A stretch of DNA of 64,000 bases from Asterochloris sp. CNOR1 (Eukaryota; Chlorophyta; Trebouxiophyceae; Trebouxiales; Trebouxiaceae), in NCBI GenBank assembly GCA_963969365.1, contig OZ017754.1, forward strand, positions 310,001 to 374,000, given 5' to 3'. Below are positions 1 through 64,000 of the stretch, piece after piece. Both the position numbers and the translations under genes were made by a program. The notes beneath the pieces are model-generated. The model saw only the letters and a program-made list of their open reading frames with translations, was not told the origin of the DNA and did not search any database. The first letter of the stretch is position 1. Every line of letters begins with the position of its first letter.

Positions 1-45
1 GCAATGTCCAGAATTCAGCGACCCTTTGTATGACACCTGCTCCAG

Positions 46-3000
46 CAGGACATCGCATCACAGCTCAACATGCAGGCTCCAGACAGACTGGATCTGGCTG
101 CCAGATTCAGTTCCTCCCTGACTGTGCAGGACCTGCTTCATGAGGTGGACGCAGCCCGTGTGACAGCCTGGGATGCCGGCACCAGGCGGGCCGCCCTGGC
201 TCATGAGGCTGGCCTGGCCGAGGAGCAAGCTGCCGTGGCCAAGCGCCGCATCCCAGAGTTGGAGGCAGAGAAGAAGGCGGCTGCAGCTGCAAGGGTGAGC
301 TGTCCTGGACTGCCTGTGCACAAGCACATGCTGCAGAAGGCACAGTTGTAGGCTGCAGCAGCCGTCAGGGTGAGCTCTTCTTGCGGCCAGGACAAAAGGG
401 AAGAGGCGTACCAGTTGGTTATGATGCTTACGGGCCTGGAGGCAGGTGACAAGACTGCTGCAGCCGCTGTCAGAAGCCTGCACAAGCATATGTGGTCGTG
501 GCAAGAAGTTGACAGTGCATCAACTGACTGATGCGAGTGCCCTGACAACATCTCTCATCCCTGTAGGACTTCAAGGGGGCTGCCAGGCTGTCAGCTGAAG
601 CCAAGGCCTTGGCTGCTGATGCTGAGGCGGCGCTGCAAAAGGCGCACAAGCTCCGTCAGCAGGTAGGCACTGCACCATGCAGGCAGGGGAAGCAAGTCTT
701 GGTGAAAACCTAGTCTGGCCACAGAGTTGCAGCCTCACCCTATTATGACGTTTCTAAGAAGCATTGGGGAGTAGCATGCTGGGCTTCTCCTGCAAGCTTT
801 ACACCTGCAGGCATCTGTGGCTGTCTTGAAGTCTGGGGCCTCTTCATGAGAGATTCCTGCGGGGGCCAGGGAGTGGTTGTTGGCTATCAAATCATGTGTG
901 TAAAGGCAATGTCGCTTGTTTTGTCATTGACAGGTAATACTTAGCCCTGATGGTGTGGAAGAGGCTAGGGCCTGCATGGCAGACCTGATGAGGCCAGTGT
1001 GCACCTTGCTGGCTGTGAAATTCTGTCATCTCAATGGTGCCTGTCGTGCAGAATGCAAAGCTTGAGGCTGCAAGCTTGCAAAGCTGTCAGATGTATTGAA
1101 AATTTGTCCAAGTGGCATCAGGTCAACAACTTGACCCAACTGATGCTGCAACTTTGGGTGGCACAGGCTAAGGCTGCATGCCAATCCTGCCACTGATCTG
1201 CTTGTTTGAAAAGCCAAGCCGAGTGACTGCGCACTGCAGGCCACTTAGCCTGAGGTTGCAGGTTTTGCTTGCTTATTGAGGCCATGTCCGCCTTGCAGGC
1301 TCCAATGGCCTTGTTATAATCCAGCAGCTTGCCCTGCAGGTGGCAGAGGCTGAGGCTGAGGAGCAGGAGAGGGCAGCTCAATTGGCAGAGCAGGCCAACA
1401 CTGTGGCTGCTGTCACACGGGATGCAGCCTTGGCACGATGGCGCCGCCTTAAGGTGGGGCAAGGTTGGAAGTATACAGGACACGGGGGCATTGATGCTGT
1501 GCACGCTGCTGCCAGGGAAGCAGCCATAGCACAGTGGCGGCCCCGTTTCAAATTTGAAGCTAAAGTGCCAACCCTTTTTGCTGCGCAGACCCTACTTGCA
1601 CAAGAGGCCTGAGCTATTGCATAGAAGGAGACAAGCATGCACAGCTGCACTTCACTGTACCTTCTCAACGTTCACCCAACAGTCCACTCCTCGATCACCT
1701 GCAGGTGGGCGCCGAGGATGTGCGGCAGCAGCTGGAGGCTGCTGTGTCGGCTGAGAAGTTTGATGAGGCAGATGCCCTGCAAGAGGAACTGACAGCGACA
1801 GCAGCAGAGGCGGACACTCTGGCTGCAGAGCATGGCTTCACATCATCCGACATGCATGATCTGCAATCCCTGCTGACCCCAACTACGCCCAAATCAGCCA
1901 GGTATGTGACCCATGTCTCAGCTTGGTGCATCTCCTGACATTGATGTTCTCCAGATGCCTTGTGCGCTGAGTGACTCCTGTTACGCCCGAGTCCACGGCA
2001 GCTGAGCTGCTCTACATGAGTGATTTGCACCCAGTTGCAGCGTCTCAACATGCCTGGCTGCACACGTGTGCGCAAGCTGCCGCCTCCGCCTCGCTCAGAC
2101 TGGAGTTGGCAGCTTGCTGTGACTTGTATGCGTGCCAGCCTGACTGATCATTGCTGTGCTTTGTGGTGCGCTGGCAAGGTGCTCTGCCCAGGTGCCTGGT
2201 CAGTTATCGCGCATGCTGCGCTAAGGTGCGCTTGCGAGCACTTGCCAACATACATTGCAGGGGGCGGCAAGCATATGCGAGCAGCACACTCAACTTGGAA
2301 GAGTCTGCATGTCCTTGCTCAGCGAAGCGAGGCTGCTGGTGAAGTGCCTTCCAGCAACAATGGCAAGCATTCAGACACTGCCCAGCTCTTATGATAGTCC
2401 CTGCAGGTCCCTGGACGCAACTGAGCAGGTCCCAGATGCAGACCAGGAGGAGGGGAAGGGGAGTGCTCACTCAGATAGTTCTGCCACCAGCGACAGGGAG
2501 GCTCGGGAGGCGGAGCAGATAGCTCAGGAGCTGCAGGTGGGTTATTAGCACAAGACTGCTTTACCATGAAACGCCCGAGTCTGCATCCTCGGCTGTGAGA
2601 TGTGCTCAAGCACGTGTGGCCACAGGACAGCTGCCATCCTTGATCTTGGCACTGTGCCAGCGTTGAACTTGGGAGCCCGCCAGGTGGCTGCACTTGCTCG
2701 TTGCCATGCATCATGCTGGCATCTGCAGTGTAGTGTTGCACTCAGGCAGCAGCACAGGCCGACAGCCCGGCGTCACTGATCTCAAAGCAGCCTGCACCAA
2801 GCAGGCACTGACCGGGTCACTGCTGGTGCTGCTTGCAGAATCAGACGGACCACTGTCTCATGCTGAGCCTGCAGACCCTCTGGCTCCCTTTGCTGCAGCC
2901 CTAAGCCCTAAGCCCTAAACCTTGAACTAACCCCGCATGCCTGCCTGTCACGTAGTGCTGTGCTTCCCCTGCAGGAGCAGGCAGTAGCTGTCATGCAGGA

Positions 3001-6000
3001 GCAGGTACAGCTGAAGCAGGCAAGCAAAGACATTGCCTGAAGGGCTCCCAGACTTGCTTGCAGGGAGACGTGCACCAGCTTCTGGAGCTCAGCGGGAGGC
3101 GGCAGCTTCCCGTCTCATGCCTTATGTGCTAAACATCACTGCGTCCCAGCCATGACAGGCTGCCTGAGAGACTGACGTGCTGTTTGCAGGACCAGGCAGA
3201 TCAGGCAGAGGACGCCATGCAGGAGCGGGCACAGCAGGCTTGCTTGCAGAACGGGGATGGGGAGGGCAGTGAGGATGGCGCAGCCAGCGAGGTGCAACTG
3301 AGACTGAATGAGCATGGCAACTGCTTCACTGCCTTCATAGGGGAGCTGTGTTGGGCTGTGATGGTTGCTGCAGCCCTGCTTGGTGTCATGCCAACTTGAC
3401 CCCTCCTCCTGGGTGTGAAGAGGTGCTCAGACGGCTAGGGGGCAGCACGCTGTGCGGAGCACGCCTCCTTGCTGCACAGGCTGCCAGCCCAGGCACCCTT
3501 TATGTCGCTCCGCTGGCAGGGCAGGGCGTGCCACAGCAGCATTCGCTGCAGCTGAATGTACCCTTGTTGCTCGACACAGACTGCTGCAATCAGGCTACTT
3601 GCCCGCAGGGGGCAAGGCTTTAGGGTTTAGGGTTTAGGGGGCACACTGTCACACCAGCCACACCCACTGCAACATGATCTTGCCTCGCTGGCGCACCTTC
3701 AAGCTCTCCCTGCAGAGCCTGTCTCTCAGCAGGTCTGCTGCAGGGCAGCGTCCACTTTCTGCAGAGGTCATTGTATGGGCCCAGCCAGTCCCTCACTCTC
3801 TCGGCTGCATCTGCATCATGGGGTCGCCCACGGCCACTTAAGCGCAGGCAAAGCCTGCACTGGGCCAGTGTTCAGGGCAGGTTCCTCTGCAAGATCACAC
3901 TGTGGGGCGGTGCCTTACCCACCCCAGCGCAGGCAATGCAAGCAGCACCAGGAGCACCGGCAACATACCCCTCTGCCTACCTCCCCTGCAGGGTGGAGGC
4001 TCCCATGGCCACTCCAGCGCAGGCAATGCCAGTAGCATCCGCAGCGCCAGTCACGCTGCCACGGACGGCAGCCGCAGCGTGGCCGCCTTCTCGCGCAGCG
4101 CCTTCCGCGACTACCGCATCCCCGAAGGGGACGGCGATGACGCCCACAGTGTCAGGTGAGCTCGGCTGCCTTGCCAAGCAGCTGATACCGCAAGCCAACC
4201 CTCACAAGCAGACCCGAGGGTCACTTGCTAGCCTTGAGGTGCAGTGCTGGAGGCGTCCCAGAGGGGGACAGCAATGATGCACACAGCGTCAGGCATGGTG
4301 TGGCAGCGTTTTGCAAAGTGGCTGGGTCACACTGCGGGCTGAGCTTTTTATGGAGTAGCCGGGCTGCAGTCAAGTAGGGAGGCCCACAGCGTGGCTAGAT
4401 TCTTGCACATCTTACCAGACGAGTCTGGGCAGCTGTCACAGGTTGCCAACATTTGGCTCAGTTTCCAGCAATCACCTTGTCCTTGAGCGACAGCAATAGT
4501 GTCCACAGTGGTGGCAGGGCACGGCTGCTGAGTTCTGTTTGGTTGTGCAAGCCTGCCCAAAGCTGCAAGCCTTGACCTCTCAATGCCCTGCAGGTCTGTG
4601 AGCAGCGTCATCTCCGCATCTCATGCCGCCACCCACGACAGCAAGAGCCACCGCACCTCCAGCACTGTCCTAGAGATGGACTTCAGCATTCCAGACGACA
4701 CCTCCAGCCTCAGATCTGTGGGCAGCACACGCTCAGCAGGCACGCCACCACTCGCATGTCACACCTGCTGGGCCCTTGTAGGATTGCTTGACTGCATACT
4801 GCTTGACAATCTGCTGATGCCTGTGCACCAGGCATCCATGCGCCTTCTCAGAATCAAAACTGTGACCTGTATCCCATGCCGCCAGCAGCTATCTCCTGCA
4901 CTGCTGGCACGAGCATGACTCAAAGAGTTGCTGACCTCTGCAAGACCTCTTGAGTGCCACGAAGGATCTTGCGGCGTGAGCCTGACATTGCCAACCGTAG
5001 CAGCATCAGTGAGCACAGTGCTGGGCCTGATGCAGGCACTGCTGCAAGGCTGCTGCCCATTACAAACATTGCCACCACTGATACGCCCAGGACTGCGTTC
5101 CATGCAGGCACTGCTGGTACGGGGGTGACGCTACCCTCCTCCATCTCCGGGCAGGCACGTGGGGCGGCCAGGGGCGCTGGGCCAGGCATGCACCCAGGGC
5201 TGCTGTCGACCTCCCCCCGGGGAGCGCTGCTGGCAGGGGCGCGATCAGGGTCCTTTGGAACAGGTGGGACATAACACTGGGGTGCTCAGCTGATGCTCAG
5301 CAGGTCTACTCTGAGCGAGTCATTCTTGAGGGCTGCTCCCAGGTGCCTACAACATCATAGCTGACCATGAGCCCGCGCACATCACAATGTGCTGCTTACC
5401 TGTGCCTGCAGCACCAGGATCTCAAGATTGCCACATCCTCATGCACATCACCACACCCTGGCTTCCTGCAAAAGCAGTTTTCCATCAAGAGGAATGGCCG
5501 AGGGTGCTGCCAACAGGGGAGGCTGCAAGCCAGCAGGGGGAGGCAGAATCCCAAGTGTGGCCCCCAGGTCACTTGCAGTAGCCAACACCCCACAAACATC
5601 AGACCACGCTAGCCCTCTGTACCTGCAGGGTCAGTGTCAGGGTCGATGGCAGCGGCAGAGGATGCGGGCTTGCTCGAGACCGCAAGCCAGCAGGGGGAGG
5701 CGGGCCCTCAGATGCAGCGCGAGGCAGGGCCCCACTTCCATGCCAGGCACCCTGGCCGCAGGATGATGGAGGCTCGCAAACGCAGCTTTGATGCTCTCAG
5801 CGAGGCAAGCTGCATGGTGGTGCTGCAGTGGGGTGGCAAGGGCTGTTTGACGCCCTGGGCAAGCAACAGCAACAGCTCATGGCAAGCCAACAACTTCAGT
5901 TTACGAGCTTGCAGTCGCAATTTGATGCACACAGCAAGGCAACGAGATTGACGTGCAGGCAGCTTGCATTCTGGCGGACCAGTCCACGTCAGGGGCTGTG

Positions 6001-6858
6001 CTCTGCCCTGGTGATGTATACCTGCAGGCGCAGCATGGCTGCTCTCGACAAGGCAGGATGATGTTGATGCTGCACTTGGGTGTGCTGACTGCAAGCTGTT
6101 GTGAGGAAGCTGCGCCTAGATCAGCTTTCCTTCAAATACACTCCGAAAAGCAGTCACCAGCTAAGTGTGCAACCTGCTGATAGTGCTTCTGCCCCCTGTG
6201 CAGATGTTCTGCTGGCCTGAATTACAGTCCAATAGCAGGCTGGTGACATCAATGTAACAACGTTCATTATCCCCAAACACATCCGGCATTGACTTTTATC
6301 TTGCAGGTCAGCGAGGCAGAGAGTGAAAACACTGTCGCGGGGGCAGCTGGTGCTTACACTGTAGACAGCAACAGCACAGCGGCACCCCGAGACCTGCCAG
6401 CTCAACATCAGGAGGCCTCGCAAGCACACGGTGAGCACATGTGCTGCTGCTGTTTCGACAACAAGCCCACAGCGCTGGCTCATTGCAGACGGGACAAAAG
6501 GCAGTGCCGTCTCAGTGATGCGCAGGCTGCTTACGTTTCCAATGAGCTCTGCAATCCTGCTGTCCACTGCACAGGCTTAGAGGAAAGGGCTTCTGGCAGC
6601 GTGGATGACCAACAGACTACTGAGGGCCGTGCACAATCGGCCAACATGCATGACGCGCGGCACAGAAGTGCTGCTGAGACGCACAGCGCGGCAGGCACTG
6701 CGACAGATGCTGGCAGTACACAGCAGAACAGCTTGAACTCCGATGATGTACTCGATGACCTGGCTGGGGAGGATGATGCTGCAGAGCTAGCAGAGCCAGA
6801 CAAGCAGCACGATCCCCCTCCAAGTGACATGTTTGCTGGCCTGTCTCTCTCAGGCTGA
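46..6858 (+). CDS. Coiled-coil protein with UVR-like motifs (5' end outside window)
   Basis: Not a family I recognise. Twelve exons were inferred: 46-294, 567-662, 1340-1453, 1705-1901, 2407-2536, 3190-3291, 3992-4155, 4594-4757 (3' end doubtful), 5108-5263, 5629-5804, 6307-6430 and 6575-6858. They give an open frame of about 651 residues ending in TGA. The frame is open leftwards to an acceptor-like AG at position 45, so an upstream exon probably lies outside the window. The N-terminal half is charged, Ala/Glu-rich coiled coil. It contains two UVR-like helical pieces, RDFKGAARLSAEAKAL near residue 83 and EKFDEADALQEEL in the 1705 exon. The middle is Ser/Gly/Ala-rich. The C-terminus is acidic and ends DMFAGLSLSG, like the short linear tails of trafficking adaptors, but that is only a resemblance. 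The 5804 donor is either GC or a GT a few bases later. Confidence 0.6.
2899..2919. repeat. Interstitial telomere-type repeat, CCCTAAR x3
   Basis: Three consecutive 7-base units, two CCCTAAG and one CCCTAAA, lie in an intron of the leftmost gene. The motif is the plant/trebouxiophyte telomere unit in C-strand orientation. A G-strand counterpart lies about 700 bases downstream at 3619-3639. Confidence 0.7.
3619..3639. repeat. Interstitial telomere-type repeat, TTTAGGG x3
   Basis: Three perfect TTTAGGG units in the next intron of the same gene, opposite in orientation to the CCCTAAR tract at 2899-2919. The two tracts flank the 3190-3291 exon. Confidence 0.8.
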
Positions 6859-8351: not shown

Positions 8352-8455
8352 GCAAGAATTTTGTTTCCAGGTCAAACATTTTTTCAAAACTCTTAGGCTA
8401 GGTTCGGGGCTGATTGTCGAGCTCGCCACAATCTCTAATAACACCAAACTGCACA

Positions 8456-11400
8456 ATGACAGACTATGCAGGAGAGCAGGAGATGGAGATCCAAGCCATG
8501 GAGTCCATTTTAGGAGATGACTGGACAGGTGCAGGCTCTCTGATGCCTCTGTCACTCATTCAAGGCCCTCCCAATGTTGCTGTGAATGAAGCCTGCTCCC
8601 TATGCACCTGCACTGTCTGAGATCTGCTGGCTGCTGCAGTGGTGGATGGACCCAGCCCCTCAGGCTGGCCAGACAGCGCAACTTGCTGGCGTGTGCCAAT
8701 CTTAGCTGCTGAGGAACACGCAGAGGCTGGCCCTACTCCAGGCAAGCGACACAAGGCTTCAGCAGGCATGAACAGGACAGTTGCAGCACGTGCTTTGCTC
8801 GTCCCCTGATGGAAGAGGCCACCTTGCTGGGTGACAGAGGGCTATGGCTGTCAGTGACGACAGGGGACAGCAATGGAACCTGCCGTGGTCAAACAGATAT
8901 TCTGCACGGGCTGGGCTCGCGCATGTATGATGTATCAATTGAGACGCTGGAGCGACGTGCTGGGAAGTTGCTTGGGAGGAGGCCCAAAAGGTCGCCGGCC
9001 TGGCTCATGGCAATCTACTTGACAGTCCACTTCTCAGGCTAAGGCATTGAGACAGTATGCCCCGTCAGGTTAAGGCACTGAGACAGTGTCTTGTTCATGC
9101 AGCCTGCTGCGACCTACTCCTGGCTCACACGGCGTCCTACCCTGACGAGGCGCCGTTGGTGAAGATCAGCAAGTGAGTACACCGTCCTGCAGCCCAGCCT
9201 TGAGCCCTGACTCCCGCTCACATGCATGAGTCCTCCAGAAACCTAGATGTATCACCAACCAGCCTGCATGCCATTGCGTGGGTTTTGAGCAGTGTCAGCA
9301 GGTGCTGCTTTGCCAAGATGACCTTGGGGCCCTGCCAAGTTGCTTTCAAATCCCCAGCTGTCCAATCACACCAGGCTGTGCAGCGGGGCATGCACAGCTG
9401 GCTGAGCACCAACACCAATGCGCCGCCATCGCTTTGTTCCTGCCCTGTCCCACCCTGACAGGGCCTCAGCAGCTAGGTCATGCACAACCGCCTGATCGCT
9501 GCACTCTGCGTACCAGCAGCCCCTGACTTCCCTTCGCCTGCTGCAGCATTCAGGATCTGAGCAACCAGGAGGGATTAGGGCCTGCTTTCTACCTGCCAAA
9601 TAGCTTTTACCACTGCTTGAATTCAGGGTCTAAGCAGACCTGGATGGAGTGGGCCTGCTCTCTATCAGCTAATGGGTCCTGCCTGTGCCTAATAACCCCT
9701 GCTCTCTGGCCAGCTGCAGCGTTCAGGGCCCCAGCAGCTTGGTCATGCACAGCCATCTGAGCACTGCCCTGCCGTGCACCAACTGCCCTCCACCTCTCGT
9801 CCCCTGCCGCAGCATGCTCCACAACCCAGAGATTGACAGCCAGCTGTGCTCTTGAAGCACATCTTTCAAGCAAGCCCCAACACCCTTTGTGTTCTGCTGC
9901 AGCGTTCAGGGCCTCAGCAACCAGGAGGTGGCAGCTCTGCAGAGCCTCATACAGGAGCAAATAGAAGCCAACCTTGGCATGGCCATGCTGTACACCCTCG
10001 TCAGCGCAGCACAGGAGTGGATGCGGGACAAGGTGAGGGGCTTCTGCTGCAAATGCCATGAGCACTGCTTGATGCTGTACACCATTGTTGGAGCACCAAA
10101 GAAACAGATTGGGGAACAATGTGAGGATGGTGGACTAGGGGTTGTGAGGAGAGTGCAGCAGCTGTCGAGCGCTGCTCAACGCCTCAAACCATCATCAGCG
10201 CAGCACATTGGATGCGGCGCAACGTGGGAAGTGGCCCAACGTGGGAAGGTGCATGGCGCTGTCTGGCACCTGTGTAGCTGTTCCTCAGGCCAGATGCAAC
10301 GGCACGCCGTATGCAGGAGCAGGTATTGGATCAACTACACCTCGCACAGATCAAGGAGTGTGTGCCGTCACACCTATGTCTGCAGAGCCCTCAGTCGCAT
10401 TGATGAACAAAGTGCAGTCTTGTGACAGAGCATGAGGAGTGCAGGCCTGTGAGAGGGCTTGAAGGTTGGAGCCTTATGACAGAGCCTGTGCTTCTCCTGC
10501 CTGGCCTCTGGCATCAGCTCAACCGTGGTTTAGCTGTCAAGTAGCAGGCTGGCGCTTCAGCAATCCATCACTGATCCCAACAAGCAATGCAACCCAACCC
10601 CATGGCAGGAGGCGTCTCTGTAAATGGTTATCATGTCTGACCCTCAGACATGATTAATATGTCTGAGGGCTGGCAGTTCAGCAGAGAACCTGGCACCCAT
10701 CCCTTGCAAAAGGTGCCATGCTTCAAAAGTTAGAACTCCAGCAGACCTGTCAATTGCCTTTGAAGAGGTCAAAGAGCAGGCGCTTTGGCAACGCTTATGC
10801 TTGCCCTTATGGGCCTGACCCAAGTCACCCTTGTTTGCTCTGCTGCAGGCCGGTGCTTCAACAGAGCCCATCGTTGACCCCAAGCAAAGCAGCACAGCCA
10901 TTCTGTAGCATGCCTCAATGATCACAAGTGCCTTCCTGCAGGCTGGTGCTTCATCAAGGTCCCATCACTGCCACCCCAAGGAAGGCAAAGGGCAGGCGCC
11001 CATGCAGCAACTGTGCTTGCCCTCTTTGGCGCTGACCCGAGTCACCCTTGTTGGCGCTGCAGCAGGCGTCTCTGACGGCAAGGCCCATGCCTGCTGGGTG
11101 GCGCTGCATCAGAGCCCCTCACTGACCGCAAGCAGCAGAGCAGCGCAGCCACGCTGTAGCAGGCGTCACTGAGAAGGGGTCCCATGCCTGCAGGTGGGCG
11201 CTTCATCAGAGCCCGTCATCGACCCCGAAGAGGCCAAGAGGAGGGCAGTGGAGGCAGAGGAGGCCCGGCTCGCAGCCCAGAGGGCACATGGGACAATGGT
11301 CACCCAGGAGACCTTTGTCGAGTGGAGGCACTGGTTTGACAAGGAGCAGGCGGCAGAGGCCGGGTGAGTGTCTCTGCTCTCTGGTTAAAGCAGGTGGCTG

Positions 11401-12987
11401 AGTGGGGCCTGAATGCTGACAGGTCAGCAGCAGAATTTCAAGTGTGCTGCTTTGCAGCGCCTTGGTGCTGACGGGTCAGCAGCAGAGAATAGTGTGCTGC
11501 TCTGCCCACTGGCAGCTTGGTTACCTGGCAAGCGCCGAAGGTAACGCTTACGCAGGAGACCTTTGCAGAGCTGCAGCAGTGCTTTGGGGTGCAGCACATG
11601 GCAGCAGCAGGGGCAGTGTGCAGGCAAGCAATTTAAGAGCAGACCGTGACTTTGTGTGCTTTTAACACCAGAGCTTCACAAAGCAGCATTGGCAAACCCA
11701 CACCCTGCGTTGATCTTCTACTTGTGCAGGCCTCACCAACCACGTGCCACGCTGTGCAGCCTGGGGGGTCATTGTCCATCTTGTGCACGTGTGAGCAGCC
11801 AAGCACTTCCTCTCTCAGCATGGTAACACAAGCAGACCTCATTGTGAAGAGCATCATATGTGCTGACTGACTGCAGGCATGGGGAGGTGCTGGCTGGGAA
11901 GGATAAGGGGGACAGGGGGCCCTCTGGAAAGCAGTTCTTCATGACACAGGAGGCTGCAGGTCGCATTGAGGTGAGCAGTCAGCAGCTTGCCTGTGAACAG
12001 CTTTTGGCTGGCAGGTACATGCGAGGTGGGGCGGGGGCCAGTCCTCTGTGTCACAGGAGGCTGCATGACCCATCGAGGTGAGCAGCTGGCCTGTGGAGAG
12101 GTCTTGGCCAACAAGTACACATAGGACACAGGTCTTGACGTCACAAGAGGCTGCAAGTTGCATTATGGTGATCAGCTCAGGTGCAGGGCAGCTGCAGCAC
12201 TTGGCAATTCCAGCTTTGTCCCGTCTATGCGCAATTAGTGGCTGACACCCACCATGTCACCTACCACTGGCTACTGCACCTGCCCTCACCAGCTACATCA
12301 AACATGGCTGCAGCTACCTTTCTCGTGGCTAAGCAGTCGCTTTCTCTGTCTACTGCTATGTTGCTCCTGCAGATCAAGGGTGTGCAGCAGGAGGCAGCAG
12401 AACTACTGCAAGCCATTGCAAGTCAGCAGGCAGGGGGCAATGTCTCAGCCAAACCAGCAGCTGCATGTCACACCTTTGGCCGACTGCTGGCTGAGCATGA
12501 GCCATGTTCTCTGCAGGAGGAGGACATAGACGACGGAGATGCCACAGACTATGAGGATGACGCTTCAGCTAATGGCGTCTCAGGCGCTGTGTCAATACGT
12601 GCCACGGAAGATCCTCAAGGTGGGTCACGACTGCGCATCTGCTGCAGCCTTGTGACAGGTGCACTTGCTCTGGGTGATGTGGCTGGCAAAGGCTGGGCAG
12701 ATCAAGGGTGACAAGCATCCTGACCATGGGTCATGCTTGCAGCAGCAGCATGCAGCGCAGGGAGCACCTGGAGATCAGAAACCGCCTAGCATCCTCATTG
12801 CTAGTCACGCTGACTGAGCACTATAATTTTGAGCTGGACGACCCCATGAAATTTCCAATGCACAGCTGATGATGCTGTCCTCAAGCTGTCATAGGTGCCT
12901 GCTGAGCTGATGTTGATCTCTGCTGCAGAGGAGAGCGATGAGGACGACGATGTCTTGGATGACTTTTTGGCAACCAAGGGACAATGA
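8456..12987 (+). CDS. RWDD1: RWD domain-containing protein (RWDD1/DFRP2 type)
   Basis: Eight exons (8456-8528, 8640-8741, 9103-9172, 9903-10032, 11194-11363, 11877-11970, 12517-12619, 12929-12987) sum to 267 codons, giving 266 residues; plant and animal relatives are about 245-250. The start MTDYAGEQEMEIQAMESIL is the typical RWD opening. The YPDEAPL motif follows in exon 3, and exon 4 encodes NLGMAMLYTLVSAAQEWM, the signature helix of this family. Exons 5-6 hold the ETFVEWRHWF and GKQFF blocks, and the C-terminus is acidic as in relatives. Family members bind DRG2-type GTPases and associate with translation. Exon 2 is the least certain and would use a GC donor (8742). A longer form of exon 7 starting near 12373 is also open. 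Introns 3, 4 and 6 contain degenerate copies of adjoining exon edges. Confidence 0.88.
9541..9902 (+). repeat. Decayed tandem copies of the exon 4 acceptor edge (RWD gene)
   Basis: The real exon 4 begins after the CAG ending at 9902 with a GTTCAGGGCCTCAGCA-type sequence. Similar stretches preceded by a gcagc- or gaatt-type sequence occur at about 9541-9590, 9618-9665 and 9712-9765. Each is in the same orientation and similarity fades after 25-45 bases. A weaker remnant is visible near 9462. They look like successive local duplications of the intron-exon junction. Confidence 0.7.
10541..11193 (+). repeat. Decayed copies of the exon 5 acceptor edge (RWD gene)
   Basis: The real junction at 11193/11194 reads GCAG then GTGGGCGCTTCATCAGAG. 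Related blocks, each an acceptor-like segment followed by GCTTCA.CA.AG.CC.ATC, occur at about 10541-10590, 10841-10890, 10934-10980 and 11098-11140. Orientation is constant and the copies stay inside the intron. Confidence 0.7.
11945..12172 (+). repeat. Three copies of the exon 6 donor edge (RWD gene)
   Basis: The exon 6 end (ACACAGGAGGCTGCAGG, then GAG and a GTGAGCAG donor) is repeated near 12049-12085 and, more decayed, near 12139-12172. Spacing is about 90-100 bases. The first copy still carries GAGGTGAGCAG, so it could be recognised as a donor. Confidence 0.8.
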
Positions 12988-41410: not shown

Positions 41411-44124
41411 ATGTATGCCCGCCCTACTTCCCACGCTGAGGCCCTGGGGCCAGGTTGTGCAGGGCCCACCTTGGCTCTGCCATACCCCACAGAACAGTCT
41501 GCGGGGCCATCATCACTGACACCATCTTGTGGGGCAGCTCCCTTCACGGTTGATCCATCAGCTGTGGCCTCTGCTAATGCTGGCAATGAGCCACGCAAGC
41601 ACACACAGTGAGCTTGTGGGAAGGCTATCTCAAAGCAATGCCATCTGTACCCAGCATTAAGGCAAAGTTCTTCTGCACTGGAGCGATGCGTGATGCTTCC
41701 CTGCAGCCAACTTCTGCATGACACCTGCCATCAAAGAAGAAGTTGTTGACAAAGTAGCAAGTCATGTCCTGTGCCATGCAGGTCCCCATACGTCACAGGA
41801 ACCTCAGTGCTGGCAGTCACGTACAAGGATGGAGTGCTGGTGGCCAGTGACACGCTTGGTGAGCTGCTCAACTGGACTGTTCCATCCGGGGAGCCAGTGC
41901 AAGAAATGCCTTCACGCCAGCGCATGCACACCACAGCCAGGCCTCCACAGAGCACAGTAGCTTACCTTGCTAGCTCTCACTTTCAAATCTGCCATGCTGA
42001 CTCGCTGCCTTCTTTGTAAGCAAGTCCTTTGAGAGCCTGTCTGTCCGCCACACAAGCACACCAACCTCTCAGCCGGCTCCTGCTGGTCACTAAGAGTCCA
42101 GCAGGAACCAGAAGTGCCCCTGTTTTGATCAACCTTAGGGTGTCTGCAGGCTCCTACGGCTCCACCAAGCGCTACAAGTCCTTCGAGCGCCTGCGCAAGG
42201 TGAATTCGCGGACCGTCATTGGCGCAGGGGGGGAGCTGTCGGACTTCCAGTACATCATGACTCTGCTGGACGAGCTGGCCACGGAGGACTTCCTGAGCGA
42301 CGACGGGATCGAGCTGTCGCCGCGGGAGGTGTTTGCCTACCTGACGCGGGTACTATATAACAGGCGCAACAAGTGAGCGGGGACTGCTAGCTGGGTGCAT
42401 CCCCTGAAGGGATGCAGGCATGCTGGGTCAGTCAGGGCTCAAGCTGTAGCTGCCTGAGGTGTTTGCCCACCTAACATGAGTATTGTGTGGAGCAGGCCCA
42501 CAAGTGAGGGCTTGCCACCTGCACAAGCTGGAAATTCGTGTGCCTGAGGTTTGGGAACTCATCCCTGCCTTGAAAGCAGTTGGCCCAACTTGAGGGCGTC
42601 AAAAGGAGCAGTGGCTGCAACTGCAGGCTTATCACACATAGGCTGGGCTGTAGGCGGAGACTTTGGGCCCTCTCCCTCCCCTGCCGCTGCTGTTGGCAGC
42701 TTGGACAAGCAGCTTTTGCCACAGGCTGGTTGGGTGCTGAAGGCTGCTTCCTCTGAAACGTCAACTAACAACGGTTGCGGGCAGAAGTGGGCAAATATGT
42801 TGTTGGCATGCACTGCACTCAGTAAGGCTCAAGGGCAGCAAAAGCCCCTCATCTTAGGGACCCAATGAATATGCATGAGAAGGTGTGAGGCGCATGGCCT
42901 AGGTCTGCTGTCTCCACGATGTTGAGAAAGCTGGGTGGTCTGCGGTCTGCAGCAATGGCGGCATCCTACCTGGCTGCAGGTTTGACCCCCTATGGAACAG
43001 CCTGGTGGTCTGTGGGCTGCAGCCTGAGGCCGACAGCAGCCAGAAACCATTCATTGGCTTTGTGGGCATGATTGGTACCCACTACGAGGATGTGAATGTG
43101 GCCACCGGTGAGCAGCTTGTGCAGAAGCAGACAGAAGGGCCCTGCCCAGCACATGTGCTGCAGTGCAGGCGCTGCATGCTGCACCTCCAGCTACAGCAAG
43201 CACAGCCATGCTGCCCTGCCTTTTGACAAGCTGCATTGCTGGGAGTTAGTCTCTATTTGATGCATGGCACCGACATCAGTGTGTTCATGCTGACCTGTTC
43301 AGTGCCCCTTTAGCCTGCATGCTGCCTGACATCAGCAGCAGTGGCGTCATAGCTCCTCTCTGTGTTGCCTGGTCATGTGGTGGCCTCTCTTGCTTGACAT
43401 TTGATCCGGCTGCACCTGCTGCAGTTCACTTTGGTGCACCAGCACACACTGGCACCCTTGCTAGGCTGCACACACTGCCAGCTGGAGGCAGCAGCTCTGT
43501 TGTGTTAAATGGTGCAACAACATGACAGTCAAGCGGAGCTTATTGGCTTGCAGGGTTTGGGAACCAGCTGGCGAGGCCCCTCTTCAGGGAGAAGCATCGC
43601 CCTGACATGAGTGAGGAGGAGGCCGCAAATTTGATCAAGGAGGCGCTGCGGGTGAGTACAAGTCTCGATTGATCATGTTGAGCAGACCTGTAATAGGTCA
43701 GTCAAAGTGCACTGTCTCGCAAAGTCTGGTCGAGTGGGGTACCTGGCTGAGCCCCTGTTGATTTGCCCAAAGCCCTGTGCATGCATCTTGGTTGGCCTGC
43801 TGCCAAACTGGCATGACGTGGCTGAGCTGCTTGCCTCCGTGCTAGGAGATTGCTCTGTGGTGCAGGTGTGCTACTACAGAGACAAGCAGAGCATCAACAA
43901 GTTCCAGATGGCCTCTGTGAAGGCAGCAGATGGTGGCAGCAGAGTCACCATCTCTGAGCCATTTGCCCTGGACACAAAGTGGGACTACAAGGTAGGTGGT
44001 TTCAACTGCTATGATCTGGGGCATTGACTGATTTGATATGGTTTCCTGTCCTCACAACATTACTGACGTCTTTTCCTTGCAGGCCTTCATCGACCCCTCA
44101 GCAAATGCAACTGGCACTTGGTAA
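41411..44124 (+). CDS. PBG1: 20S proteasome subunit beta type-4 (PSMB4/PBG1)
   Basis: Seven exons (41411-41607, 41782-41858, 42150-42372, 42980-43107, 43554-43651, 43866-43991, 44083-44124) give 297 codons, TAA stop. After a poorly conserved N-terminal region come TQSPYVTGTSVLAVTYKDG and LGSYGSTKRYKSF. DFQYIMTLLDEL, LTRVLYNRRNKFDPLWNSLV, GFVGMIGTHYEDVNVATG, VCYYRDKQSINKFQMA and TNWD-like TKWDYK follow. As in all beta-4 (beta-7 in yeast numbering) subunits the processed N-terminal Thr catalytic centre is absent. The role is structural, in the beta ring of the cytosolic and nuclear proteasome. The first-exon ATG is the first in-frame one. The tail end lies only 82 bases from the convergent isomerase gene. 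Confidence 0.96.
42455..42512 (+). repeat. Copy of the proteasome exon 3 donor edge in the next intron
   Basis: The exon end (GAGGTGTTTGCCTACCTGAC ... GCGCAACAAGTGAG, 42327-42378) recurs at about 42456-42510. There it reads GAGGTGTTTGCCCACCTAAC ... GGCCCACAAGTGAG. The donor motif AAGTGAG is preserved in the copy. Confidence 0.85.
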
Positions 44125-53264: not shown

Positions 53265-53425
53265 ATTTGCTGCATAAAACATCAGTTAGCCGTAACTCCT
53301 CCTGGCCTGGTTCCATCAGGCCATCACTTATTCTGATGGCCCAAATGAATTAGGGTTGCAAAGAAGGCGAGTGCATAAGGCGTTGTTGAACGGTGTGTGT
53401 GGCCCGCCAGCCTGCTCTGCTTACC

Positions 53426-56400
53426 ATGTCTTCTCTGTACATGCAGCAGCGACCCCTGGTCCTTCATTGCTGCCTCACACCTCCCATATGGCCTCAATTG
53501 CCGATCAGGAGAGCATGCGCTCCCAGACTCCAGAAGCAATTACGCAAGGGAGGCAAGCGCTCCCTGGAAGTCTCAGCCCAGGCTGTGGCCATCGAGGATG
53601 CCACCACCATAAATGCCCAAGCTCCTCAGATCAAGGACAGCAAGAAAAAAGTGCAGGATCTCAGCCCTGAGGTGGCCAAGGACTTGTACAGAGACATGTT
53701 TCTTGGCCGCGAGTTTGAGGAGATGTGCGCCCAGATGTATTACAGGGGAAAGATGTTTGGCTTTGTCCACCTCTACTCTGGCCAGGAAGCAGTCTCCACT
53801 GGTGAGTTGTGTGCAGCTTTAAGCACAGTAGTCTCAGGGTGCTGCATGGTGGGATTGCATGGCTGGCATCTGCTGTCAAGCAAATAGGTCCACAGCAGAT
53901 AGCTGGTGAGGCCCACGCAGCTGACAAAGCAGCACTGTCAATTGCTGCTGCGCTGCGCACATGCTTGCAGTTTGCTCTGCTCAATGAAGACATGCCCAAG
54001 TCGCACCGCATCGAGCTTGATGTTGCCCTGTTCATTATGGTGCAAACTCCTGCATAGTTATCTGCTGTGGCCCCTGAGACGTGCGGTGACCTGCCAGCCA
54101 GTATCGCAGAGCAGCTGCCACTGCAAGCTGCTCAACGAACCTGACTTTCTCGACGCTGCCGGGCTGCCTGGCAGCAAGTATAGCTTTGTCTTTCAAGCGT
54201 GACACAGGGCTTGCAGTGGGCCTCAGAGCATGGTGATATATTTGAGCTTGCTCTGTCCTTCTGTGCAGGTGAGATGTGGGGCCCAGGACAACACAGCAGG
54301 CTGCTTTTTGACATTAAACTGTGTTTCATCTGTGCAGGCGTGATTAGGGCCCTCAGAAAGGATGACTACATCACATCCACATACCGCGATCATGTGCACG
54401 CTCTGAGCAAGGGCGTCCCAGCCAGGAACATCATGGCTGAGCTGTTTGGCAAGAAGACCGGCATCTGCCGCGGGCAGGGCGGCTCCATGCACATGTTCAG
54501 CCGCGAGCACAACCTGGTGGGTGGGGCCGTGGTGGCTGTGTGTCTGCTGTGCGCATGCTCAGCCGCCAGCACGACCTTGTGTGCCCGTGATGGCTCTACA
54601 TTTCTTTTTGCTGCCTTGCACATCGTGCCGCCTGCTCACAACAGTGCAGCTGTCATGTTAGACGCTGTGCAGACCTGTCTACAGGGCTTCTCAGCTGTTG
54701 CCTGGAAGCCTGACCCCTCAGCCGGCCTGGCTGCGCAGGACTGCTTCAGAACTGTACCCTCCTCTGCCTGCAGCTAGGCGGCTTTGCCTTCATTGGGGAG
54801 GGTATCCCTGTTGGGCTTGGTGCAGCCTTTAAGACCAAGTACATGAAGGTGAGCCTGCTGTGCAGACCAGCGTGAGCTGTTGGGTGTCAGCGGCAGTTGT
54901 GGCAAGCCAGCCTCCTCCTGAAGCTGAACCCAAATCTGCCCGGTCATTGCACAAGCAAGAACAGTCCTACCCTGACCTGTCAAGCAGCAGTACTCCCCAG
55001 GCTGGTAAAGTGAACTGCAGCCAGCCTGTGTTGCCCAGATCAAGACATTGTCAACCTGCACTGCAGGATGCAGTGGGAGATGAGACCGCTGACCAGGTTT
55101 CCGTCAACTTCTTTGGCGATGGCACCTGCAACATGGGTGAGGCCTGTCAGTACCGCATGCCTGACCTAGCCCCAGCCACGCAGCCGATGTTGTGGCCCCC
55201 GGTCTGCGATTTGCCGGCGGCACCTCATCTCCGCCTCCAGGCTAGTAGGTCAATGGTGCACGGGGTGTTCTGTCTGGCACCTCAGTGATGTGATTGCAGC
55301 CCCTGGCTGTGCCTGCCTGCAGGCCACTCGACTGCCTGCCTGCCACTGTCCAAGATCAGGCCAGCCACATGCCTCTCATCAACTGTTCATGTCTGCGCTG
55401 CAGGCCAGTTCTACGAGTGCATGAACATGGCCTCCCTGTACAAGCTGCCCTGCATCTTTGTGGTGGAGAACAACAAGTGGGCCATCGGCATGGACCACCA
55501 CCGCGCCACGGCCCGCACCGAGGGGGACAACCTGCCCTTCATCTACAAGAAGGGCCCGGCCTTTGGCATGCCTGGCGTGCTGGTGGATGGCATGGACGTG
55601 AGAAAGGTGAGGCTGCTGGCTGCGCTGGTCTTTGGTATTCTGACAGGGGGCCGATGCATGCAGCTGCCTGCTTCACTGCATGATGGTCCACCTTTGGCAT
55701 GCACAGTTCACTGCATAGAGGTCATGTAGGTCAGGATGCTCCCCTGACCAACTCTCCTGGGTTGCGTGGCTGGGGAATGCTCCAGTGGCTTAGATAGCCT
55801 TAGTTTACAGGACAGCTTGCAGCTCATGCACTGCTTGGTGGCCTGCCATCGCATCCCTTCCTTCTGGTCAACAGTTGGATGTCAGAAAGATGAGGTTGCT
55901 GGCTCTGTTCTGGGGGCCTGAGGGGCTGGTGCATGCAGCTGCTGCCTCCCTGCATGCTGACCTGCTTTGTGACTGCCCAGGCGTGTGTATCTGGCACACA
56001 GTGTGGCGATGAATGCAGAGCAGGCAAGCTGTTGGGTCACAGGGTCTTGGTTCCCAGTGGCTGTAGCAGTGTGCTGTTTGTCAGCAGGGCTTCCACGCGG
56101 CCCAAGGAATTGCAGAGCAGTGCTGATGTTTCAAATCTTGTGCCATCCTTGCCCAGTTGGCGGACCTTTCAGCCTGGCACTGAAGATCCTCTTGCTGCCT
56201 CAGGTTCGTGCAGTGGCAGAGGAAGCCATTGCACGGGCACGTCGGGGGGAGGGCCCAACTTTGATTGAGGCTGAGACATACCGCTTCCGTGGGCACTCCC
56301 TGGCCGACCCTGATGAGATGCGTGAGAAGGCAGAGAAGGAGTATTGGCAGGTGGGCTGTTCAACGCCAGCCCTTGAGGGCTGCAGCAGGTGTGCCTGGCG

Positions 56401-57707: not shown

Positions 57708-60162
57708 TCACTCAGCATCTGAGACGTGGCCCTCAGCGTCAAACTCCTGGAGGCTGGCTGCAATGGCCCGGGCCGTTGCCTCATCCATGGGGGCCTTGCC
57801 CTTGTCATCCTTGGGGGTCACATCCACCCAGGCATCCTCCTGCAATCAGAGAGCAACAACACTTCAGCATAGGACTGCCTAATTTGGGCAGCAGAACGGG
57901 CTATGACCACTAGTGCAATAGCAGAGCACAGCTGCTCCCATGTGCCAGGCAGCAGCCTCTTGCTGTGCTGCAGCCTGCCACGGTGCAAGCAGAAGCTTGT
58001 GCGATGGAACATGCATCTCGATTGGCAGAGGACCCAGGTCTGGAGGAAATGCTCAGCAGTGCAGCACATACCCACCAAAGCATATACAGCGGCCTGCCGC
58101 AGGCAGAGCTCAGCTGGGCAGCACAATCCTGCCAGGAGCATGCACAAACCAACAGGCCACCCAAATCACAGATGAGGCAACCAAGGAGATCACCTCGTGG
58201 TCCTCCTCCATTGGTGCCGCCTCCTTGTCGGTGGAGAGCCGGGGAGCAGCTTCATCAGGCTTGGTGGGGGCGCTGGCGTCAATGGTTGGGGCAGGGATGT
58301 TGTCGTCGCCCAGGATGGGAATGGTTGTCAGCTCTGGCTTGGCAATCTTGGGCAGGGAGACTGCAGGCAGCATGTGAGTGGGCGGGGTGGTGGGTGTGGG
58401 CAAGATGGGGAAGCAGAATGCCTTTGTAAAAGCACATGCAGAGACGCAGCAGCTGCAGGATGAGGAAGGCATGGCTTGAAACAGATGGACGGCAGGCAGG
58501 TCAGGACTGTGCACGTGAGGCTCTGGCTATGTGCAATCCAGGCAGAACGTACAGCAGGCTGGCCAGGACTGCACACATGAGGTACCGGCCAAGTGCAACT
58601 CAGGCAGAACGGACAACAGGCAGGCTAAGCCTGCACACATAAGGTACTGGCCATGTGCAATCCATGCAAAAGGGACGACAGGCTGGCCAGGCCTGCGCAC
58701 ATGAGGCACTGGCTAGATGTAGTCCAGGCAGTGGCATGAGCTGCTGGCCAGGGGGTGGTCACCTGTCAGCTCCCCATTGTCAAGTTTGGCAGAAATGCCC
58801 TCGACGGCGACGTCCTCTGGCAGCCTGAACTCCCTGCGGAACTGCTCATGCCTGCGCTCCTGCAGAATGGTCTCTGTGGAGGAGGCGGCGGGGTCGACTG
58901 GGTAGCTGCCTGAGATGATCAGCAGGCCGCTCTCATTGTCCAGCTGGGCTGCCAAGTTGTTGCGGGGCAGGCCTGGCACCTCTGCAAGCGTGAAGGGAGC
59001 AGCTTCAGGGGAGATTTGCAGATCTTTCGACAAATGTGTGATGCAAAGAAGGTATGGGACAGCAATGCGTGTCTGAGAAGCTTCTGGAGCAGGCCGATAA
59101 GAAACCAGATGATGCACGAGCCACAGCCTGATTGCAGCCAAAGGGCAGCCCCACACTGCGCAGAGCAGCAACATGCAACTGCCTCCCAAGGGTCCCCAGG
59201 CAAAACAACAACAGTACCACTCATGCACAGGGCAAAGGGTTGGGTGGCACCATCACTACACAGCACTGCATGGCCAGGCCATGAGGCAGTGCACACACCT
59301 GCAAAGATAAGGTAGCTCTCCTGCGCCTCTGCCACCTCGATGCGGACGCTGCCCTCCCCCTGGTGCTGCCTCAGCAGGTGCAGCCCTGAGGGGCTCGCAG
59401 AGCCATGCCTTCCACAGTGCCCCCAGGGGCCGCCTCCATGCCTGCCATGGTGGTGCCCACCAGGGCCTGCGTGACGGCCTGGGCTGTGGCTGTGGCGGTG
59501 GCGGCGCCCATGGTGGTCAGAGCCCGAGTGCGAGCCTGGGCTGTGGTGGCGCTTCTCGTGGTGGTGGTCAGAGCCTGAGTGTGGGCCTGGGCTGTGGTGG
59601 GGCCTCTTGTGGTGGTGGTCAGGGCCTGAGTGCGGGCCTGGGCTGTGGTAGCGGCTGGGTGAGCCGTGCCTGGGCCCATCGTGAGGGGGTGGGCCGTGCC
59701 TGGGCCAGCCATGATGGGGGCCCATCGGGTGCTGGCCAAAGCGGAGGCCTGCGAAGAAGCCAGGGCCAAAGCCTGGTGGCCCATGACCGCGCCTGCAGCA
59801 GGGAGGGGGGTTTGGGGTGAGTAGGGACTCAGACCTGCCTACAGGAAGCTGTCAGAAGCTGTAAAATGCAGCAGCTCTTGTTGCTGTACAAAGCAGCGCT
59901 CAATGCTGTACAATGAGGCAGTAGGCTTGCAGTGGGCACGCAGTGGCGCTGGTGACATTTGTGCAGGCAGTTGTGCTTGAGAGCAAACACAGCATGGCAT
60001 GTGCTGGGCACACAGCTCAGCAACTCACCCCTGGTGCCTGCCCCTGCCTACCCTGCAGCCTCCACGAGCGCTGGGGCCACACCGCGCGGGCCCATGGTCT
60101 GAGTCTTCGAACATGTTCTCAAACATGTCTTCAAAGATGAACGGTGGCATGTTCAGCATCAT
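57708..60162 (-). CDS. Small heat-shock protein (HSP20 domain) with His-rich repeat N-terminus
   Basis: Five minus-strand exons (60162-60083, 59792-59299, 58981-58763, 58360-58182, 57839-57708) total 368 codons, TGA stop. An acidic/aromatic start (PPFIFEDMFENMFEDSDH) leads into about 120 residues dominated by His, Gly, Pro and Ser. Units there resemble HHSPGPHSGSDHHHE. The alpha-crystallin domain follows: VRIEVAEAQESYLIFAEVPG, LPRNNLAAQLDNESGLLIIS, RREFRLPEDVAVEGISAKLD and NGELTVSLPKI, the end of the classic HSP20 beta-sandwich. The tail is Pro/Ala/Glu-rich and acidic. The chaperone role is inferred from the domain. The His-rich arm could bind metal or drive assembly. The exon 1 donor (GTGTGG at 60082) was chosen by phase. 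Confidence 0.88.
58493..58740 (-). repeat. Four-unit tandem repeat, period about 62 bases, in an HSP20-gene intron
   Basis: Units start near 58493, 58556, 58618 and 58679. Each contains a CAGGCTGGCCAGGMCTG-type sequence, then GCACACATGAGGYACTGGC and a TGYARTCCAGGCAG-type end. The array abuts the exon 3 donor region, whose plus-strand sequence GCTGGCCAGGGGGTGGTCAC resembles the unit start. Confidence 0.9.
59430..59720 (-). repeat. In-frame coding repeat of the HSP20 His-rich arm
   Basis: About five imperfect units of 45-51 bases encode HHSPGPHSGSDHHH-like peptides. Unit length is a multiple of three, so the repeat can expand or contract without shifting the frame. Confidence 0.8.
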
Positions 60163-60366
60163 GTTGTCTGTGTTAAATCGATCTGTGCAAAAGATCATTT
60201 TTCTGGAAGCTATTTGACCCCAGCATCTGACCTAATCGTTTTGCAGAATGCTTTACTCATCTTCTACAAGATTCTAGTAGATTCAACTAGTTAGGCTGCC
60301 CCAGCCTGGGTGTTGAGCACTGAGTATCATACACAGACTTGACAGCAGATCAATTTAGGTGGCGAC

Positions 60367-62243: not shown

Positions 62244-62429
62244 GGAGGCATGCTTGACACTAGTGCGGTCCTGCTTAACACAGCAGTCAAAACTGTTCAG
62301 GTGGTCTATGAGGGAGTCATCTTTGTGAGCCTTGCGCAGGGCCGACAAGACCACCATACTGCTGTGGTCAAAGTGGCCATGAGGTCCTTGCGCAAGATTT
62401 GGGGTAGGAAGCATGGGTGAAAAGGTTGG

Positions 62430-63618
62430 TCAAGCGCCAACACTAAGGCTACCGGAAAGCATGATCACAGCTTGGCCCAACACCTGAACTTTGCCTTCGC
62501 CCTCTAGCACTTTGACATTCAGCTCGCCCCCACGAGGGCTGCACTGTCTGGCTCTGAACTCGAGCCTGCTTGGCATCTTGGAGGCCCAGTAGGCTGCAAG
62601 GACAGAGTGTGCCGACCCAGTCACCGGATCTTCTGCAATTCCCATCCAAGGAGCAAAGACCCTGGAGTAGAAATCGTGGGTCTGGCCATCACCTGAAGGG
62701 CATCCAGCCCGTCTGGGGCACTTTGCCGACCAGTGCATGCAATGTGGGCTCCATTGCAAAGATGGGCAGGCATCACAGGCCTTGTGAAGAACCCACGCAC
62801 AAGCCACAATTCTCAGACAAAGCGCAGATGGGGGCAGTTGGGGTGGAGGGGCAACTACCTGCACATGTGAGGATGATCTGGTTAACATCGCCCTCAGTGT
62901 GGAGCTTCAGCAGGGACTGAGGGTCAGGGGTTGGCAGCGCCTCCAGCTGTTGCTGGGAACAGTCCACTGCCATGAGCAGGTACCTCACGGTCTTGTTGTA
63001 CAGCACCTCCCTTACGGGAAGCTTGCCAGCAACTGCCTGCAGCAGCAGGACAATCACACTGCAATGTTGGTGCAGGCAGAGCAAGGCTGTGGTTTGTCGG
63101 ACTGCGGCAGCCACAGCAAGCAGCCATCTGGCACATGCTGCTGGTCAGGCGATGGGGAGCAGTGCGAGCTCTGAGCTCTCCTGAAGCATGCACTGCAGCT
63201 GTAGGGAGGTCGCATGAACTCCGCTGCTTTGCAGGCCGAGGATTCTGTCTGAGTTCACACTGAAGGCGCAGTGTAGGGCTGCGGCCAACTCCAGCACTCC
63301 ATTTGGACAGCAGAGGCAGCTGACCTGCTGGAGGGTGGGCACGGCAGGCAACCACAAGGCGCCGCCTTTTCGCCAGTTTGGCCACTTCACAAAGTTCCAT
63401 CACTGATGTGGCATGCTCTGCCTCCTTCCCAGAGGGCAAGCGAACAGAAAAGGCTGTTGGTGTGCAGGTCCTGACCTCTGGGAGCCCTGACACGCCTGGC
63501 AGCTTGTCGGTGGGTGCCAGCAGGGGAAGCTGCATGGCATAGCCTTCTGCAGTGCGCTCCACCGTCAGCGTCCTACTCTTTGTGTCAAAATGGACTTTGG
63601 GGGAGGCATTGCCAGTCT
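62430..63618 (-). CDS. PhzF family epimerase/isomerase-like protein (5' end not found)
   Basis: Four minus-strand exons were placed: 63618-63476, 63288-63220, 63036-62859 and 62692-62430 (TGA). The C-terminal half is diagnostic for the PhzF fold: THDFYSRVFAPWMGIAEDPV, TGSAHSVLAAYWASK, RARQCSPRGGELNVKV and LGQAVIMLSG. The first visible exon encodes VHFDTKSRTLTVERTAEGYA, the usual beta strand after the first catalytic lobe. Roughly 100 N-terminal residues, including the catalytic Glu region, should precede it but I could not place them in 63619-64000. They are probably beyond the window. PhzF-like proteins in eukaryotes are mostly of unknown substrate. The 69-base second exon has a weak acceptor and is tentative. 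Confidence 0.82.
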
Positions 63619-64000
63619 CTGCATCAAGGGCAGATGCAGATGAGGGATGACATGGGTGGCAGCAGCTGCTGGCTGATCAGCAGGAGCATTGCCAGTTTGT
63701 GCGTGCAGTTCAGCCGCAAGTCAGCGGGGACAGCGCAAGTCAACAGCATTCTGTTGGAAAAAGGCCACAGCTGGGCAGAGCATACTCTGCAGAGCAGACG
63801 CAACTGAAGACAAGGAAGGCCCAGGGTACCTCTCAAGACTGGTTGATTGCAGCTGGTGCAGATGCAGATGGCGATGGGGCAGATGTGTCAGCAGCATGGT
63901 GCTGATGTTCTGTTGAAACCATCACTTGCCCTGAGCATGCAGGTCGTATTCAGAGGGGGGCTTAAGAGGCCAACACTACTGCTGACCGACCAAGATGCCT
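63619..64000. other. Right-edge sequence, probably a PhzF-gene intron
   Basis: No exon recognised. A segment at 63682-63707 (GGAGCATTGCCAGTTTGTGC) echoes the acceptor edge at 63602-63621 (GGAGGCATTGCCAGTCTCTG). Confidence 0.45.

Follow-up and report, generated by a model that had tools for sequence, protein, structure and literature searches.

Introns of the green alga Asterochloris sp. CNOR1 contain direct-orientation, partly decayed copies of the exon edges that adjoin them. We analyzed these copies, termed echoes, in a 64-kb stretch of contig OZ017754.1 (positions 310,001 to 374,000; G000:C9:310001-374000), referred to as the window, and in further loci of the 56.4-Mb, 21-contig assembly. 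The echoes are real and genome-wide, with clear examples in roughly a tenth of the tested introns rather than in every intron. They are best explained by short stretches having been duplicated in tandem at random, then decaying under the filter of selection, and we put the probability of this reading at about 75%. An initial annotation of the window had described introns filled with copies of their own splice junctions in at least twelve genes; the core of this observation was confirmed, whereas the gene count, the statement that whole exons are not copied, and the restriction of the copies to junctions were overstated.

The main sample comprised 254 kb, consisting of the window and 19 nuclear 10-kb loci (20 nuclear sequences), and four further loci (40 kb), kept out of gene-finder training, served as a hold-out. 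The 294 kb surveyed in total correspond to ~0.5% of the genome, and the age inference given below rests on them. For comparison, the published genome of Asterochloris glomerata is summarized as 56 Mb with 56-62% GC and 9 introns per gene (PMC6652019). Gene structures in the window and the 19 nuclear loci were predicted with a small gene-finding hidden Markov model self-trained on the sequence, which returned 44 genes, 618 exons, and 572 introns over 254 kb. The consensus obtained from the predicted introns was CAG|GTGAGC for the donor and CTGCAG|G for the acceptor. The acceptor was very strong across all predicted introns (T 94%, G 94%, and C 96% at its middle positions), and GC donors were found in ~7% of them. 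Many of the exon borders coincided with coordinates of the initial annotation. Pfam gave a match for all six of the proteins submitted to it (out of 13 predicted in the window; two of the six in trimmed form), and two window proteins were also compared with solved homologues (1ni4_A and 7qve_u). Errors of the gene finder included extra small exons, some of which are echoes (e.g., 38735-38782). In label-based tests, exons shorter than 25 nt were counted as intron (12 nt in the donor-acceptor register test), giving 1012 junctions and 506 introns. The edge test covered the 328 of 506 introns whose neighbours were long enough and excluded 3 bases at the splice site. Pairs were scored +1/-1 with a main cut-off of a score of at least 20 at a spacing below 600 bp, and a separate self-comparison used at least 30 bits.

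In the self-comparison of the window and the 19 loci, 162 direct repeats and 1 inverted repeat were detected at spacings of up to 500 bp. At a score of at least 20 within 600 bp, there were 160 direct and 0 inverted pairs in the 254 kb, and the same test on the hold-out gave 33 and 0. When exon edges were compared with their own adjacent introns, 36 of 656 tests matched at a score of at least 18. Under the same threshold, no match was obtained with the far end of the same exon (0/442), in inverted orientation (0/656), or with shuffled introns (0/656), and only 2 of 6498 tests matched in unrelated introns. These four controls rule out chance or composition as the source of the matches, and the claim that the copies belong to the adjacent exon and are direct in orientation holds against unrelated, inverted, and shuffled sequence alike. 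The hold-out gave adjacent matches in 8/64 tests, compared with 0/34 at the far edge, 0/64 inverted, and 0/1512 in other introns. At a score of at least 16, echoes were present in 48 of 328 introns over a background of 0.0025 per test. Echo-bearing introns were longer than the others (median, 404 versus 273.5 bases), in support of the proposal that tandem duplication across exon-intron borders lengthens introns. The genome-level spread that had been suggested from the window alone was also borne out: 18 of the 20 nuclear sequences had at least one pair of score at least 20, and 119 clusters of old, decayed copies (score at least 18) were counted in the 254 kb. After hits of score 15 or more had been masked, direct 8-mers at 50-200 bp in introns were still 18-28% in excess (inverted, 0.92-1.07), and older, unreadable copies are probably present in the introns. 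Locus L021 (G000:C21), a 39.6% GC stretch of a 215-kb contig near the published plastid genome size of 217.5 kb, had only 1 direct and 1 inverted near repeat.

By class, the 160 pairs consisted of 78 exon-intron, 40 intron-intron, 32 exon-exon, and 10 other pairs. The 40 pairs that lie within introns only resemble exon-intron pairs in spacing and identity. Spacing was 50-250 bp in 146 of 185 pairs (score at least 19). The exon part crossed the facing junction in 55 of the 78 exon-intron pairs and the far junction in 4, a bias that a contiguous duplicated unit requires, and the donor and acceptor sides were near parity (41 and 37 pairs). Whole exons are copied in exceptional cases, which include L014 8708-9326 and L020 105-1040 as well as the 4 pairs that cross the far junction. 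In L014, one exon and its acceptor are repeated roughly four times in an array, with one pair 89.7% identical over 145 columns; this is a fairly young exon-scale duplication. Pairs within the same exon were filtered by frame, with spacing divisible by 3 in 7/7 cases, several of which come from the same arrays (window 59450-59706 and L013 9597-9837), whereas multiples of 3 were not the rule in exon-intron (24/78) or intron-intron (9/40) pairs.

Similarity beyond the matches was measured in 40-base windows against permuted partners; a nearby-sequence control itself contains copies and gave the opposite sign, so it was discarded. The mean local score was 7.40 on the intron side, where permuted partners gave 6.48 (z 5.54, n 68); toward the exon interior, the two values were 6.67 and 6.47 (z 1.05, n 69). 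The exon-side ends are the sharper ones. The freshest event seen, L007 1751-1822/1823-1894, is a 72-bp copy that is 100% identical, exactly adjacent, and located within a predicted intron; no shared bases were found at its borders when read by eye. Neither CTGCAG/CAGGT nor any other of the seven breakpoint motifs tried was enriched at 72 exon-side ends.

The echoes and related repeats of the window are as follows.

3811..4048, plus strand: the head of exon 3992-4155 echoed twice, at 3811-3855 (matching 3986-4030; score 25, 77.8%) and at 3919-3958 (matching 4009-4048; score 26, 82.5%); best inverted score nearby, 12.

9459..9928, plus strand: decayed intron array, 9459-9549/9724-9815 and 9548-9599/9621-9672 (scores 44 and 23).

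9459..9928, plus strand, in the same array: exon 9903-10032, whose head and acceptor are copied at 9538-9572 and 9702-9736 (scores 27 and 23).

10843..11224, plus strand: multi-copy region before exon 11194-11363, with units 10843-10956/11091-11208 and 11055-11127/11152-11224 (scores 46 and 41; exon labels in both copies).

11932..12175, plus strand: donor echo, with exon end 11932-11970 and the donor copied at 12039-12085 and 12129-12175 (scores 29 and 27).

22800..22969, minus strand: donor-side echo 22800-22854 of exon edge 22916-22969 (score 21, 72.7%), in a gene that we take to be acyl-CoA-reductase-like.

33340..33489, plus strand: acceptor echo 33340-33398 of exon 33439-33665 in a DASS/2-oxoglutarate-malate translocator gene (score 20), coding in the public model P0001 discussed below.

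34185..34684, plus strand: a piece of exon, 34185-34229, that recurs in the following intron at 34640-34684 (score 31, 84.4%), the match ending short of the junction.

38605..38792, minus strand: exon head 38605-38629 and acceptor copied at 38758-38792 (score 21, 80%), the copy being called as a 48-nt exon, 38735-38782, by the gene finder.

39392..39559, minus strand: exon head 39392-39453 and acceptor copied at 39490-39559 in a glycosyltransferase gene (score 34, 74.3%, spacing 98).

42305..42508, plus strand: exon tail 42305-42372 and donor copied at 42435-42508 in a proteasome beta-subunit gene (score 28).

54488..54581, plus strand: exon tail 54488-54516 and donor copied at 54550-54581 in a pyruvate dehydrogenase E1 alpha gene (score 22, 84.4%).

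55593..55980, plus strand: exon tail, donor, and ~100 intron bases, 55593-55706, copied at 55876-55980 (score 27, 71%), with similarity deep into the intron.

59450..59706, minus strand: in-frame exonic tandem array of repeat pairs with spacings of 51, 108, and 159 (51-bp steps); toward its C terminus, the gene product presumably resembles small heat-shock proteins.

Among the 20 places listed in the initial annotation as clear cases, 16 had a direct pair of score at least 20 within 70 bases, and the best inverted scores at the 20 places were 9-14. Two places were marginal (15444, score 16; 56726, score 15), and the direct pairs at 31526 (score 11) and 49353 (score 12) were not above background. 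The best pairs carried exon labels in both copies at 3190, 14772, and 38629, in the last case because the gene finder had called the echo itself an exon. Exon bases also occurred in both copies of the top two pairs at 11194, and the best pairs at 21799 and 45694 were intron-intron by labels. Instead of at least twelve genes, 9 of the 13 predicted window genes had an exon-to-intron pair and 11 of 13 had any direct pair. Two interstitial telomere-like tracts, at 2899-2919 (CCCTAAR x3) and 3619-3639 (TTTAGGG x3), lie in opposite orientation in two introns of one predicted gene; they are the only two matches to the search pattern in the 294 kb and are possibly scars of break repair.

We propose that short nuclear stretches of ~50-250 bp underwent head-to-tail duplication at numerous sites within genes, perhaps by end-joining or slippage. 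A unit composed of an exon tail and intron head, or of an intron tail and exon head, would leave the outermost donor and acceptor in use and thereby restore the old mRNA, while the inner copy would turn into intron and decay into an echo. Intron-internal units would produce the intron-only repeats, exon-internal units would be kept only when in frame, and the past rate would have been much above the recent one. Junction copies stand out because their exon partner is conserved, whereas the partners of intron copies decay on both sides. Copies of exons also look privileged because a tandem unit that contains exon and leaves a copy in the intron must include the junction. At the four junctions compared with homologues (42372, 54516, 55606, and 33439), relatives' proteins continue without the echo, and by this protein comparison the homologues support the predicted outer splice sites. 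Specifically, the protein is contiguous across 55606 in 1ni4_A, and no extra segment is present at 54516, where 1ni4_A is shorter by 2 residues. In the proteasome model, residues 124-178, just after the exon ending at 42372, have no counterpart in 7qve_u and count among the errors of the gene finder.

To simulate this scheme, tandem duplications were placed at random on the predicted genes and left to decay neutrally, with power-law indels and with constraint acting on the exons. With 0.22-0.30 substitutions/site and an indel ratio of 0.15-0.3, the simulations gave an identity of 73-78%, a matched length/spacing of 0.27-0.52, and an intron-side excess of 0.85-1.5, compared with an observed identity of 77%, a ratio of 0.38, and an excess of 0.92. 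Several results weigh against random tandem duplication. The facing junction was uncrossed in 23 of 78 exon-intron pairs, and among the 18 such pairs of the hold-out, 9 crossed it, 2 ended at it, 7 stopped short, and 1 crossed the far junction. The matched length exceeded 0.9 of the spacing in just 23 of 127 pairs (score at least 22), with median ratios of 0.38 for exon-intron and 0.54 for intron-intron pairs; since most pairs are not visibly adjacent, they must be old and broken up by indels if they arose in tandem. The intron-side flank signal vanished from 50 bases out (z 0.13), the exon-side flank reached z 2.24 with 60-base windows, and ungapped identity beyond the match was at background on both sides, so that indels must have broken the intron part. 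The matching simulations gave an exon-side excess of 0.64-1.33 compared with 0.20 observed. A uniform-age model missed the length ratio and the class ratio (exon-intron/intron-intron, 0.97-1.24 versus 1.95 observed), the age-fitted model overshot the latter (2.5-3.3), and no single setting fitted all measures. Identity-weighted simulations failed on the length ratio and the class ratio, which speaks against a simple steady-rate model. Two further candidates were rejected. Hypermutation of new copies resembling repeat-induced point mutation did not agree with the ordinary exon-to-echo spectrum (394 transitions versus 382 transversions); changes affected 110/265 CpG positions and 364/1799 positions elsewhere. 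Copies already diverged at birth would be expected to match equally well in their intron and exon portions, which seemingly is not the case.

Duplication might instead be directed to junctions, with splicing-coupled damage (R-loops or lariats) or AG|GT microhomology starting duplications at borders; this we consider unlikely. Junction-intron pairs (score at least 19) numbered 72, compared with ~37 in random shifts (donor, 43 versus 18.5; acceptor, 29 versus 18.8), and exon-interior-to-intron pairs were depleted (23 versus 36.2), two results that favor this reading. The class ratio of ~1 in uniform-age simulations, compared with 1.95 observed, also favors direction to junctions. However, the ratio obtained with fitted old ages is above the observed one, so that the random model would predict a junction share at least as large as that seen, and a process aimed at junctions, as the initial annotation implied, is not needed. 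The intron-only pairs (40/160), similar in spacing and identity, the near-equal donor and acceptor sides, and the lack of CTGCAG/CAGGT enrichment at exon-side ends also speak against such direction, as does the intron-internal position of the sole perfect copy (L007).

It is still less probable that short segments were pasted nearby by template switching without being tandem. Such dispersed local copying would give visible copies that are short relative to their spacing, as observed, as well as ends that fall to background identity ungapped on both sides and that are sharper on the exon side than in simulated tandem copies; these features again count against tandem duplication, and the sharper-than-simulated ends make an element of dispersed copying possible. 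On the other hand, the copies are direct only, random segments would cross near and far junctions equally, in contrast to the 55 and 4 of 78 observed, and the perfect L007 case is exactly adjacent.

A function of the echoes as decoy sites or alternative exons under selection seems very improbable to us. The splice consensus is well kept in echoes, with median scores of 3.86 for donors and 7.24 for acceptors (GT and AG taken at random within introns, ~0 and -2.6), although this retention is biased upward by the choice of matches for similarity. Purging of echo splice sites was not seen, with GT kept in 22/28 and AG in 20/26 cases, counts that come from selected matches. One echo is used in a public gene model. 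The predicted 547-aa translocator of the window had Asterochloris P0001 (eukprot jgi/Astpho2, which we take to be Asterochloris) as its best match, with 514 of 516 aligned residues identical outside two gap blocks of 24 and 31 columns. The 31 residues of our model that are lacking in P0001 are a gene-finder error, and the 24-residue insert in P0001 is the translation of echo 33340-33398. This insert is lacking in the six relatives aligned (two Trebouxia, Myrmecia, Coccomyxa, Chlorella, and Arabidopsis; 6 of 120 listed). As read by eye, the public model needs a following 22-nt intron to keep frame, and because of this the echo exon is taken for a probable annotation error caused by the echo. 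Both the need for a 22-nt intron and the absence from relatives argue against function, as do the largely out-of-frame offsets (14/55 multiples of 3) and the weak codon-position bias of differences (0.211, 0.218, and 0.274), which is explicable by synonymous change in exons. The suggestion that echoes may seed cryptic splice sites agrees with the well-preserved consensus of these sites and with the coding status of one echo in P0001, and annotators should be warned that an echo with an intact splice site can enter gene models in this way. Finally, an artefact of TGCAG-rich composition, conceivable from the strong and common acceptor consensus CTGCAG|G, is refuted by the inverted, shuffled, far-edge, and unrelated-intron controls together with the hold-out and deserves practically no credence.

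Random tandem duplication with decay also bears on the age of the echoes. The interpretation first offered was upheld in that border-crossing tandem duplication lengthens introns genome-wide, but neither its description as a continuing mode nor a role in intron gain was supported. Under a constant rate, 30-38 of the 118 exon-intron and intron-intron pairs should be at least 90% identical, whereas 2 were seen; in the hold-out, 1 of 33 pairs exceeded 90%, a 23-bp match. Fitted ages were favored over a constant rate by 77-91 log-likelihood units, a gap overstated by the non-independence of pairs from one array. Per 0.05 substitutions/site, the fits placed ~1 event in the youngest bin and, according to the indel ratio chosen, 77-223 events at 0.15-0.20, with the older bins poorly determined and jumping between fits. 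Since loss of copies over time cannot cause a dearth of young ones, either duplications would have been commoner relative to substitutions in the past, or the decay model may be wrong in a way that escaped detection. The perfect 72-bp tandem copy shows that the process is not extinct. Tentatively, and with more doubt than confidence, we suggest that the Asterochloris lineage went through an episode of hyperactive short tandem duplication, in which the rate, measured against point mutation, exceeded the recent one by one to two orders of magnitude. This episode would have built a large share of the intron length and then nearly ended, and the introns would preserve, as a dated fossil layer, a change in the habits of repair or replication. 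Old events stay readable because one partner of each junction copy is a conserved exon, and the exon can therefore be used to date the growth of introns, an approach that could extend to any intron-rich genome. These results bear on the origin of intron length in transposon-poor genomes, part of which is traceable here to short tandem duplications.

Partial within-gene duplications are common in eukaryotes. A survey of them reportedly concerned exon-scale events, whereas the bulk of those found here are sub-exon pieces left in introns. Among the matches listed in a literature search covering titles and the beginnings of abstracts, which is no proof of absence, no description was found of introns generally filled with decayed copies of adjacent exon edges. 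As far as these sources go, junction-crossing tandem duplication is known case by case, and its general spread through the introns of one genome was not found described; we make no claim that the density is unusual among eukaryotes. Introners, described as elements copied into many genes (PMC9860276), are similar in the mass origin of intron sequence. Unlike introners, echoes match their own neighbour exon, with 2/6498 matches in unrelated introns, a comparison that did not extend to a genome-wide search for intron-to-intron families.

A review (PMC3443670) counts tandem duplication among the supported ways in which introns are gained, and the Rogers-type AGGT tandem duplication treated there belongs to the same class of mutation as the events in Asterochloris. 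Its signature, a donor in register with the intron's own acceptor, was found in 2 of 541 introns compared with 0.3 expected (score at least 12) and is not general; intron lengthening is supported, whereas gain as the main route is not. Within L008 9463-9596, a predicted intron of 96 nt (9476-9571) has its donor and its acceptor in register in two copies, making this intron a fair candidate for birth by tandem duplication. A close parallel is the RNA-dependent RNA polymerase gene of potato, for which one report (PMC4974935) describes a tandem duplication that crossed an intron-exon boundary, carried splice signals, and made an intron, as well as another 83-bp tandem duplication inside an intron that left the gene structure unchanged. 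As in potato, the unit in Asterochloris spans an exon edge and splice site (55/78 pairs, and 9/18 in the hold-out). However, the potato case is one young gene documented by RNA-seq and phylogeny, whereas Asterochloris presents 119 old, decayed clusters that mostly resemble the lengthening of introns.

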